From NCBI RefSeq assembly GCF_018798885.1, contig NZ_CP076361.1, positions 2,819,501-2,883,500 of the forward strand: a stretch of DNA of 64,000 bases, read 5' to 3'. Positions 12,472 to 16,190 of the stretch are shown here, piece by piece. Both the position numbers and the translations under genes were made by a program. This DNA comes from Gemmobacter fulvus. GTDB taxonomy: Bacteria; Pseudomonadota; Alphaproteobacteria; Rhodobacterales; Rhodobacteraceae. How positions within the stretch are numbered: the stretch's first letter is position 1; every line of letters begins with the position of its first letter. The notes below the pieces were generated by a model that did not search any database, had not been told where the DNA came from, and was given only the letters and a program-made list of their open reading frames with translations.

Positions 12472-13108
12472 CCGCCTGTTTGTTTCGGCGTGCAAATTTG
12501 ACCCCCTAAGGCGGGGTATCGGCGTCCAATTTTGCCCCCCTTGAAGTTCTATCAGACCGTTCGTTGCGGGGCAGCGAACGGAGTGGGGGATGAAGCGAGT
12601 GGATACGATCGCGCGGGTCAGACGGGCCTACTATGTCCAGAAGTGGTCGGTGAAGAAGATCGTGCGGGAACTGCACGTGTCGCGGAATACCGTCCGGAAG
12701 ATCCTGCGGTCTGACGAGACGGACTTCAGCTACGAGCGTGAGCGCCAGCCGATGCCGCGGATCGGGCCGTGGCAGGGACAGCTTGAGCAGTTCCTGTCGT
12801 CCAACGCGAACAAGCCGTCGCGGGAACGGCTGACGCTGATCCGCATCTTTGAAGAGTTGCGCGGGTTGGGCTACGAGGGCGGCTATGATGCCGTGCGCCG
12901 GTTCGCGAAGGGCTGGTCGCAGAACCGGGGCGCGGTGACGGCGGAAGCCTATGTGCCGCTCTACTATGCGCCCGGCGAGGCATACCAGTTCGACTGGAGC
13001 CATGAAGTCGTGGTGATCTCCGGCGTCACGGTGACGGTGAAGGTGGCGCACGTCCGGCTTTGCCACAGCCGGATGATGTTCGCCCGAGCCTACATGCGCG
13101 AGATCGAG

Positions 13109-13139
13109 CCATTGTCCGCCATTGGTCCGAGGACAATGG
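13109..13139. repeat. Hairpin insert 1 in istA
   Basis: CCATTGTCC (13109-13117) and GGACAATGG (13131-13139) form a perfect 9-bp stem around the 13-nt loop GCCATTGGTCCGA. Comparison with the istA reading frame on either side implies about 37 extra bases here, which explains the frameshift. The same loop (one base different) and the same stem length recur at 13223-13253 with a different stem sequence. Confidence 0.75.
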
Positions 13140-13222
13140 CGAGGGGAGATGGTGTTTGACGCCCATGACCGGGCCTTCGCCTTCTTCAAGGGCACCTGCA
13201 CACGCGGCATCTACGACAGTGA

Positions 13223-13253
13223 GGCTTGGCCGCCATCGGTCCGAGGCCAGGCC
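13223..13253. repeat. Hairpin insert 2 in istA
   Basis: GGCTTGGCC (13223-13231) and GGCCAGGCC (13245-13253) form a 9-bp stem with one G.T wobble around the 13-nt loop GCCATCGGTCCGA. About 35 extra bases are implied relative to the transposase frame. Architecture is identical to insert 1, 92 bp to the left. Confidence 0.75.
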
Positions 13254-14161
13254 GAACGAAGACGGCGGTGGAGGCGGTCTTCACCGGCAAGGAACGGCAT
13301 TACAACCGTCGCTTCCTGCAGATGTGCAGCCATTACCTGGTCCAACCCGTTGCCTGCACCCCGGCGTCCGGCGGGGAGAAGGGTCAGGTCGAGAACCAGG
13401 TCGGGCTGGTGAGGGAACGGTTCTTTACGCCGCGCCTTGGAGTCAAAAGTCTGGACGAACTGAACGCCTGGCTGCTGGAAAAATGCGTGGCCTAAGCAAA
13501 GGCGCACCGCCATGTGGAAGAGACCGACAAGACGATCTGGGAGATGTTCGAGGCCGAGCGGCCCCACCTCGTTCCATACGTCGGCCGCTTCGATGACTTC
13601 CACAGCGTGCCAACCTCGGTATGGAATACCTGCACGGTGCGGTTCGACAACAACAAATACTCGGTCTTGGCGACTGCCGTCGGACGTCCCGTAGATGTGC
13701 ATGCTTACGCCGAACGCATCGTCATCCGACAGGATGGCGTGGTGGTTGGGGAACATGCCCGCGCCTTCGGGCGTGGCCAGACGGTCTATGATCCGTGGCA
13801 TTATGTGCCTGTGCTGGCACGCAAAACCCGGCGCGCTGCGTAATGGGGCTCCGTTCAAGGACTGGGTGCTTCCGCCCGCCATGGCTGCGATCCGGCGCAA
13901 GTTGAAGGGCAGCGATGATGGCAACCGGCAGATGGTCCATATCCTGAGTTGCGTGCCCGATGACGGGTTGCAAGCCCGAAGCCACCTGCCGGGAAGCCGT
14001 GGATCAGGGCGTCCATTCCGTGCCTGTCGTCATCAACATCCTCGCCCGACGACGTGACCCAACCCCGCCACCACTTCTACTCACCCCCACCGCGCTGCGC
14101 CTGACCCACGAACCCGTGGCCGATTGCGCTCGCTACGACAGCCTCAGGAGGACCAGCCGAC

Positions 14162-14890
14162 ATGGAACGCACCCAAATCTTAGACCTGATGGGCAGCCTC
14201 AAGCTCTACGGGATGCGCAGCGCCTATGAAGAGGTCATGGCCGCGGGCATCAAGCGCCAGCACGAACCGCCCCGCATCGTCGGTGACCTGCCGCAATCCG
14301 AGATCGCGGAGAAGCAGGCCAGATCGATCCACTACTAGATGACCGTCGCCAAACTGCCGCTGGTCAAGGATATCGAAGAGTTCGACTTCACCGGCACTCC
14401 GATCAACGAGGGGCTGGTTCGGGAACTGGCCACCGGCAGCTTCGTCGCGGACCAGCGCAATGTCGTCCTCATCGGCGGCACTGGCACCGGCAAGATCCAC
14501 CTCGCAATCGCCATTGCCCGTGCGCTCATCCGCAATAGCACCCGCGGCCGCTTTTACAACGTCGTCGATCTGGTGAACCAGCTTGAAACCGAGACTCGCG
14601 GCGGCAAACAGGGACGGCTGGCCGATTACATGACCCGCCTCGACTTTGTAATCCTCGAGGAACTCGGCTATCTGCCCTTTGCGCAATCCGGCGGACAGCT
14701 GCTCTTCCACCTGATCAGCCGCCTCTACGAACGCACCTCCATCATCGTCACAACCAACCTGGCCTTCGGCGAATGGCCGACCGTCTTCGGCGACGCAAAG
14801 ATGACCACGGCGCTCCTCGACCGCCTGACCCATCACTGCGAGATCGTTGAGACCGGCAACGAGTCATGGCGCTTCAAAAACCGCGCCTGA
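14162..14890 (+). pseudogene. istB: IS21 ATPase helper gene (istB) with an amber codon and a mutated P-loop
   Basis: IstB is the AAA+ partner of the IS21 transposase. Starting at 14162 (MERTQILDLMGSLKLYGM) the frame runs to a TAG at 14336-14338, where the family has glutamine ([14 protein letters not shown]), and then continues to 14890 with [18 protein letters not shown] as Walker A and [14 protein letters not shown] as Walker B. The Walker A threonine (GKT) is isoleucine here, which should abolish nucleotide binding even if the stop were read through. Both changes are C-to-T transitions (CAG to TAG, ACC to ATC). Confidence 0.88.
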
Positions 14891-15033: not shown

Positions 15034-15923
15034 CTAAGCCGCCTTTTGGGCGAATAGGGTTTCGAATTCCTCGGGGGTTCGGTAGCCGAGGGCGGAGTGC
15101 AGTCTCTTCGAGTTGTAAACCTGCTCGATGAATTTGGGCAAGCGGGCCGCGACGTCGGCGAAGGTTTCGTATCCGGCCCTGTAGACTTCCTCGACCTTCA
15201 GCGTCTTCATGAAGCTTTCGGCCTGTGCGTTGTGATAGGGGTTTCCGACGCTGCTCATGGAACCGCGCAGACCTGCGGCCTGAAGAGCATCGCGATAGGT
15301 TTGAGATGCGTATTGGCAACCCCTATCCGTATGATGGAGACAGCCTTCGGGAGGGTTTCGGTTGGCCACGGCCGAGTGCAGAGCCGCAAGTGCCAAGGGC
15401 GTGTCGAGACGCTGCGACAGCGCATAACCGACAACTTTGCGGCTGCAGGCATCCAGAATGACCGCCAGATAGCAGAACCCTGTCGCAACGCGGATGTAGG
15501 TGAAGTCTGCGACCCAAACCCTGTCCGGGTGATCAGGGATGATGTTGCCGTAAAGGTTCGGGAATATTGGGGAATCGTGCCTGCTGTCCGTCGTTCTGAC
15601 AAAGCGCCTGCGGGGTTTGATGCCAAGTCCCGCCTCCCGCATCACCCGTGCTATCCTCTTGTGATTGACTACAAACCCGTGGCGACGAAGCTCATGGGTC
15701 ACGCGGCGGTAGCCGTAGCATGGCAGTTCATCCTGGATGTCTTCGATGATGGCCGTGAGTTCAGCGTCTGTAAGCCCTTCGGCCTTGGCGGCGGGGCGGT
15801 AATAATAGGTGCTGCGAGGCAGGTTCATGGCTTTGCACCCCCGCCTGATGGAGCAGGTGCGGGGCCGCTGATCACGAAGGACTTCTCGCTGTTGTTGGCG
15901 GTCGGCATCCGCGGTGTTTTTTT
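15034..15923 (-). CDS. IS3-family transposase OrfB (catalytic part, made by -1 frameshift from OrfA)
   Basis: The DDE integrase domain: first Asp in VWVADFTYIRVATGF, second in CLHHTDRGCQYAS, and Glu in NAQAESFMKTLKVEE, with the IS3-type spacing. HTH_21 region before it: YYYRPAAKAEGLTDAEL to PCYGYRRVTHELRRHG. The frame overlaps the OrfA frame; a run of seven A residues on the minus strand (15917-15923) within GCC-AAA-AAA-AC is a classical slippery site and would fuse OrfA after its coiled coil to OrfB. An internal ATG exists at 15828 if OrfB is also made alone. Confidence 0.9.
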
Positions 15924-16190
15924 GGCAAGATCCAGCTCCATCGTGAGCTGGCCCACCTTGCGCTCGAGGGCTGCGATGCGGGCCTCGTATTCGGCGATGA
16001 CGCTGGCTTCGGCCTCCTCGTCCGTCAGCTCGCCACGGTCGAACTGGGTCAGCCAAAGCTGGATGAGGTTGGCAGAGATGTTATGGCTGCGTTGCGCATC
16101 GCGTCGCCCGATGACGCCGGCCCGGATATCTTGGCAGAGCTGCAGCTTGAATGCGGTCGAATGTCGACGGTAGGGACCTCGTGATGTCAT
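15825..16190 (-). CDS. IS3-family OrfA (DNA-binding subunit)
   Basis: A 121-residue protein starting MTSRGPYRRHSTAFKLQL with an HTH_8/HTH_29 domain (residues about 12-55, ISANLIQLWLTQFDRGEL) that recognises the terminal repeats, then a leucine-zipper-like helix (EYEARIAALERKVGQLTMELDLAKK, described here by its ends) that multimerises the transposase. The frame passes the slippery A run at 15917-15923 and ends in a Pro/Gly tail (PAPAPSGGGAKP) that is the unshifted product. Confidence 0.9.
   Translation of the reverse strand: MTSRGPYRRHSTAFKLQLCQDIRAGVIGRRDAQRSHNISANLIQLWLTQFDRGELTDEEAEASVIAEYEARIAALERKVGQLTMELDLAKKTPRMPTANNSEKSFVISGPAPAPSGGGAKP

Follow-up and report, generated by a model that had tools for sequence, protein, structure and literature searches.

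Two short hairpins inside a broken transposase gene of Gemmobacter fulvus are best read, with a probability that we put at roughly two in three, as copies of a non-coding mobile palindrome, very small at about 39–42 nt, in which a fixed loop is held between varying but complementary arms and which would move in the manner proposed below. Both hairpins were found in the window, that is, the whole 64,000-nt stretch of contig NZ_CP076361.1 analysed here (positions 2,819,501 to 2,883,500). If this reading holds, a very small mobile element exists whose arms are free to change while they remain paired and which inserts without target duplication, into transposase genes as well as into loops of its own kind, and its many insertions would provide material on the movement of palindromic repeats for which no transposase is known.

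The carrier is an IS21-family element on the plus strand, consisting of a broken istA (12590..14057, the end being approximate; delimited by open reading frames, DNA relatives, and tblastn with IstA) and istB (14162..14890; from the open reading frames, and named as istB under the plasmid matches). Insert 1 (13104..13144, plus strand) comprises 41 nt, made up of a 14-nt arm, the loop at 13118–13130, and a second 14-nt arm, and insert 2 (13219..13257, plus strand) comprises 39 nt, made up of a 13-nt arm, the loop at 13232–13244, and a second 13-nt arm, and lies directly 3' of the Asp codon in the IYDNMKTAV motif of istA. Both inserts contain an exact copy of the 13-nt loop GCCATYGGTCCGA, flanked by arms that pair as CCATTGTCC/GGACAATGG in one hairpin and as GGCTTGGCC/GGCCAGGCC in the other; the stems are thus unrelated in sequence and still pair around a common loop, as a preliminary description of this DNA had stated. 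That description had also given a design of a 13-nt loop on a 9-bp stem, of which the loop length is correct and the stem has to be revised to 9–10 standard pairs, a G.A/A.G step, and two outer pairs.

The limits of the inserts are those of the best single-gap fit to IS21 relatives, according to which 41 nt replace GCCA at site 1 and 39 nt replace ACAT at site 2 (GACA/ACAT/GAAG). In relatives without the blocks, the nearest full-length one of which (L015) is 85% identical, the alignment gap is 36–37 nt long at site 1 and 35 nt long at site 2, so that the 37 and 35 nt originally reported for the two extra segments are right as net gains, and the bases in question are no part of the normal coding sequence there. 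The inserts had further been thought to shift the reading frame and then restore it, which is true of their sum (+72 nt); istA nevertheless has further lesions, its frame after site 2 stopping at 13495 and the next one ending at 13843, and istB is likewise broken, by a stop that ends at 14338 (all from the open reading frames). Because istA has decayed elsewhere too, the frame kept by the two inserts together says little about function. An IS3-like two-frame transposase element, recognized by eye among the open reading frames, follows the IS21 copy at 15034–16190 on the minus strand.

The exact loop occurs twice in the window against an expectation of 0.0075 from base composition on both strands. 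When each hairpin was folded alone, the z-scores of hairpins 1 and 2 were −2.91 and −1.53 as plus-strand DNA, −3.70 and −0.67 as minus-strand DNA, and −2.82 and −2.95 as RNA; the second hairpin as DNA is therefore not unusual by itself. With two mismatches allowed, the loop is no commoner in the window than expected (6 matches against 6.11), which would fit an origin of the two similar hairpins by local mutation in one decaying gene. Such a chance origin is hardly credible, being refuted by the empty IS21 relatives and by the family-wide copies recovered with the covariance model described below, and the covariation of the arms also speaks against it.

In the own genome, the only full copy of this IS21 element's DNA is that of the window, the other matches being short pieces of 76–83% identity at two places. 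A loop pattern with one mismatch gave 34 matches there and its reversed control 4, and the only exact loops are the two of the window. These two hairpins are also the only matches of the covariance model in the genome, and their E-values are flattered because the model was built partly on them. Given that no others exist in this genome, the two copies probably arrived with the IS21 copy.

Outside this genome, the hairpins form a dispersed family. The loop together with the right arm, with one mismatch allowed, was present in 51 of 394 genomes of the bacterial family (Rhodobacteraceae), and the reversed control pattern in none among the lines listed. A covariance model (R1) of 25 elements (22 of 42 diverse chosen ones plus 3 more), whose building rows had been filtered on inner pairing, matched 193 of the 394 at E ≤ 0.001; scoring covered some 15 candidates in each genome, which makes counts of 15 lower bounds. 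In a class-wide draw, R1 matched 8 of 385 genomes, namely, the own genome, 3 others of its family, and 4 from other families (E of 6.3e-5 to 8.4e-4); among the genomes listed from this draw, which are mostly those with a match, one further family genome had none. On genome contigs, at least 120 stretches matched a longer pattern, and among 80 listed contig titles nearly all are of organisms that we take to be Rhodobacterales, the exceptions being MAGs called Rhizobiaceae (1), Proteobacteria (1), and Alphaproteobacteria (2). Plasmid records gave 38 matches, all bearing names that presumably belong to the Rhodobacterales. Phage records contained no hairpin match at E up to 1, and 8 IMG/VR contigs matched, one of which (L295) agrees in size and match position with the bacterial contig L122. 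Of 154 copies, 64 have relatives in which the site is empty; three weak loop matches (L012, L013, and L140) were then removed, leaving 151 copies for later counts. Dispersed copies with empty sites, the mark of a palindromic mobile repeat in the wide sense, are thus at hand, and it is from them that we infer mobility. They support the short palindromic mobile or repeat element first suggested for the two inserts, and the further loop copies with paired arms sought on that suggestion are abundant in the family genomes and absent from the own genome. The best reading is a new REP-like mobile palindrome, in this wide sense only.

Over 86 distinct sites, the limits of the element are sharp: sequence information extends about 17 nt to the left of the loop and 16 nt to its right and then falls almost to nothing. 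The consensus reads GGRRYGAGCCNTTGTCC, loop GCCATYGGTCCGA, GGACAATGGCGRRYGS, with arms of 13–15 nt on either side of the 13-nt loop, and a second stem type, GTCGCCATTGTCGC/GCGACAATGGCGAC, carries the same loop. In RNA folds, a small inner GCC/GGU stem forms inside the loop, with CCGA bulging out; in DNA folds, a three-pair inner stem appears in the second window hairpin only. The model rows were 82.6% paired against 55.1% in shuffles and had a covariation of 0.663 against 0.191 (reached by 0 of 500 shuffles), while pairs changed on both sides numbered 13 against 11.2 (reached by 33 of 500); because these rows had been filtered on inner pairing, this test leans towards structure. Most of that selection bias is avoided in a second test with 102 hairpins selected by nothing but the loop and the 4 nt flanking it on either side, a criterion that fixed stem positions 1, 2, and 4. 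Pairing exceeded that of shuffles at positions 3, 5, 6, 8, 9, 10, 11, and 14 (0 of 300 shuffles) as well as at 13 (1 of 300), 7 (4 of 300), and 16 (7 of 300), and did not at positions 12 (158 of 300) and 15 (118 of 300). The arms thus covary, including outer pairs unused for selection, to a degree that is overstated by the shared descent of the copies, which the shuffles keep. Judged from sequence comparison, this is a hairpin family in which the loop is fixed and the arms vary yet stay complementary, and the initial supposition that a kept loop with compensated stems denotes a family of structured elements holds across it.

Covariation of this kind, together with the conserved loop and its inner stem and bulge in RNA folds, would also suit a conserved functional RNA or DNA element, such as a regulator or terminator, that is not a mobile repeat, as would the intergenic copies in G-run palindromes described below. 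The copies, however, stand in unrelated gene contexts and in both orientations, some are nested in one another, empty relatives exist, and Rfam gave no match up to E = 1 in 8 loci, all of which make a functional element decidedly improbable.

The ends of the hairpins bear on how a mobile palindrome would insert. In 61 hairpins, RRYG stands at both ends, resembling a direct repeat, and the preliminary description had raised target duplication as a possibility. The middles are complementary in 56 of the 61, in 34 of these without being identical, and in none of the 61 are they identical only; the end tetranucleotides therefore belong to the stem, and target duplication was rejected. Instead, a few target nucleotides are replaced. 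Among 32 fits with flank identity of at least 85%, 4–5 nt were replaced in 18 (8 of which are one IS21 site), 6–7 nt in 6, and 8–12 nt in 8 (partly reflecting alignment ambiguity), the best fits giving about 4–7 nt without any duplication. Net gains were 35–39 nt, often not multiples of three. Over the 86 distinct sites, the left neighbour of the element is often A or G, and the right neighbour is often G. The plasmid searches yielded no near-identical empty copies above about 92% identity (matches at best 80–95%) and no strain series above 98% identity.

Many IS21 copies have a hairpin at site 2, among them a group whose protein is about 35–45% identical. Moreover, locus L155, which groups with an IS21 lineage other than that of the window, has hairpins at both window sites (37–75 and 155–192), the first with a changed loop; the two loops are separated by 114 nt, the same spacing as in the window. 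The insertion sites are not random, as the frequent occupation of site 2 in other IS21 copies and of both sites in L155 shows. In a FastTree tree of 47 IstA rows with hairpin labels set by hand, a rough test that includes partly broken proteins and some duplicate rows (L002 to L005 come from one place, as do L061 and L185), the hairpin rows were scattered across lineages. An automatic check recognized 13 hairpin rows and required 11 changes, compared with a mean of 11.6 for shuffled labels; it agreed with 12 of the 14 hand-labelled rows, missed L036 and L099, and added L023, a locus with a second, broken IS21 copy that contains the hairpin. L150, labelled by hand as lacking a hairpin, apparently has one at site 2 by eye. 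With the hairpin rows scattered in this way, one ancestral functional insertion at site 2 is unsupported. Tip branches were longer for the hairpin rows (median 0.113) than for the others (0.041). The istA of L108 has no stops to either side of the hairpin (residues 1–209 and 211–533), and the hairpin may therefore be its first lesion. One IS21 copy (L036) contains at least 4 hairpin-like matches (1115, 1762, 1890, and 2488) in both orientations.

The genomic settings were surveyed by tblastn with 17 transposase pieces, most of them labelled by Pfam (the labels rve_L132 and IS66 being weak, and those of the L024 IstA, the second L047 piece, and the IS110 protein given by homology or by eye), counting copies that lie inside a transposase-like frame or no more than 80 nt from one. 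Such frames accommodated 110 of the 151 copies (91 in an earlier search with 8 pieces) and 59 of the 86 distinct sites, a raw share that does not factor in the genomes' background of transposase DNA and is biased upward by the fetching of the 151 copies via one stem type or IS21 DNA. The 59 sites comprised IS3 (30), IS21 (12), IS5 (8), IS256 (5), rve (2), IS1182 (1), and IS110 (1), with 44 hairpins in sense and 15 in antisense orientation. In a second sample of 60 copies, hand-picked from the listed model hits, 23 were in or beside transposase frames by tblastn (15 sense and 8 antisense), and 4 more were so placed by Pfam or a shared site (L263, L281, L270, weakly, and L230, which is the same site as L074), while 19 by a fixed rule (21 by eye) lay in an intergenic G-run palindrome. 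These intergenic copies rule out a purely transposase-specific element. Another copy lies inside a phage terminase large subunit gene (L122:2369–2415), the upstream part of which is GpA_ATPase. The second stem type was seen in L225, L227, L259, and others of L224–L283, where it occupies intergenic palindromes built as AAATATCC...GGGGG hairpin GGGGC...GCCCC.

The sense bias of 44 to 15, together with the istA genes of L108 and L019, in which a frame-shifting hairpin has open frame to either side, might indicate translational bypassing or recoding, in which ribosomes skip the hairpin and the transposase stays functional. Against this stand the 15 antisense and many intergenic sites, the scattering of hairpin-bearing IstA copies on longer tips, as decay would give, and the other stops in several carriers, the window's among them; bypassing is accordingly very improbable. 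A host or plasmid defence that places hairpins into transposase genes to disable insertion sequences would make use of the same longer tips and of the otherwise open L108 istA, along with the 59 of 86 sites in or beside transposase genes and the one istA position filled across scattered lineages. We consider it unlikely, given that 19 of 60 model hits reside in intergenic G-run palindromes, some in other hairpins, and one copy in a phage terminase, that the site sample is partly IS-biased by how it was fetched, and that no defence machinery was found.

Candidate movers of the palindrome were compared between 18 hairpin-rich and 14 hairpin-free genomes, hand-picked from the R1 results. Genes for the Y1 transposase (RAYT, PF01797) were present in 2 of 18 and 1 of 14, respectively, those for Y2 in 4 of 18 and 2 of 14, and those for IS110 in 12 of 18 and 7 of 14; none of the three tracks the hairpins in these 32 genomes, and all were rejected as movers. 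For the preferred mobile palindrome, we infer all steps beyond dispersed, foldable, and inserted copies. The element would move as a folded single strand, either DNA or a DNA copy of RNA, the ends of which would come together at the base of the stem; the loop and bulge would be recognized by a trans-acting enzyme, and the hairpin would be joined in across a short gap in exchange for a few target nucleotides, only foldable copies being able to move, so that the arms stay paired. Joining across a short gap would explain both the replacement in place of duplication and the persistent pairing of the arms.

Among known systems, REP palindromes tagged with GTAG or CGTC come closest. According to PMC3733652, these are short, many-copy sequences, some of which lie inside other palindromes; the CGTC class, which is the prevalent one in Alphaproteobacteria, lacks a transposase of its own, has loops of 4–5 nt, and moves in a way stated there to be an open point. 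The hairpins resemble REP elements in being short palindromes of many copies, some inside other palindromes; they differ in their loop of 13 nt, with an inner triloop in RNA folds, in the fixed loop between varying arms, and in the many copies within transposase genes. Moreover, they have no unpaired GTAG or CGTC tag (consensus GGRRYG...RRYGS, with no information outside), and Y1 does not accompany them as RAYT would a GTAG repeat. The second stem type, GTCGCC...GGCGAC, does contain CGTC on the other strand, paired in the stem. Since tag and loop length differ, we do not file the hairpins as GTAG or CGTC REP. Rickettsia palindromic elements are likewise palindromic repeats inside genes of Alphaproteobacteria, but are longer and in-frame, unlike the present net gains. 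Bacterial MITEs share with the hairpins the short, non-autonomous inverted repeats; the hairpins differ in lacking a target duplication and a conserved arm sequence, and no parent transposon was found for them. Mitochondrial byp elements are also hairpins of a few tens of nucleotides inside genes and are bypassed in translation, in contrast to the hairpins with their antisense and intergenic copies and decayed carriers. Among the titles and opening lines of abstracts listed by literature searches, none reports this repeat, and in the library of paper texts 12-letter pieces of the loop occurred only in two unrelated papers on Plasmodium.

The loop itself may serve as a target. Some hairpins are nested, one folded within the loop of the next, to a depth of three in L243 and of two in L249 (near 1316). 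A more specific version of the mechanism would have a lineage-specific machine recognize the loop and bulge and swap the folded strand for a few target nucleotides, favouring transposase genes and the element's own loops; we regard it as speculative and rather unlikely, and if real, it would amount to a chemistry of transposition that duplicates no target and inactivates insertion sequences as well. An element of IS110 type in L043 (107–1500, with a 370-aa open reading frame, named by eye) splits the loop of a site-2 hairpin, the only split loop among the loci scanned for one. The same istA has, by eye, a second, antisense hairpin near 1612–1655.
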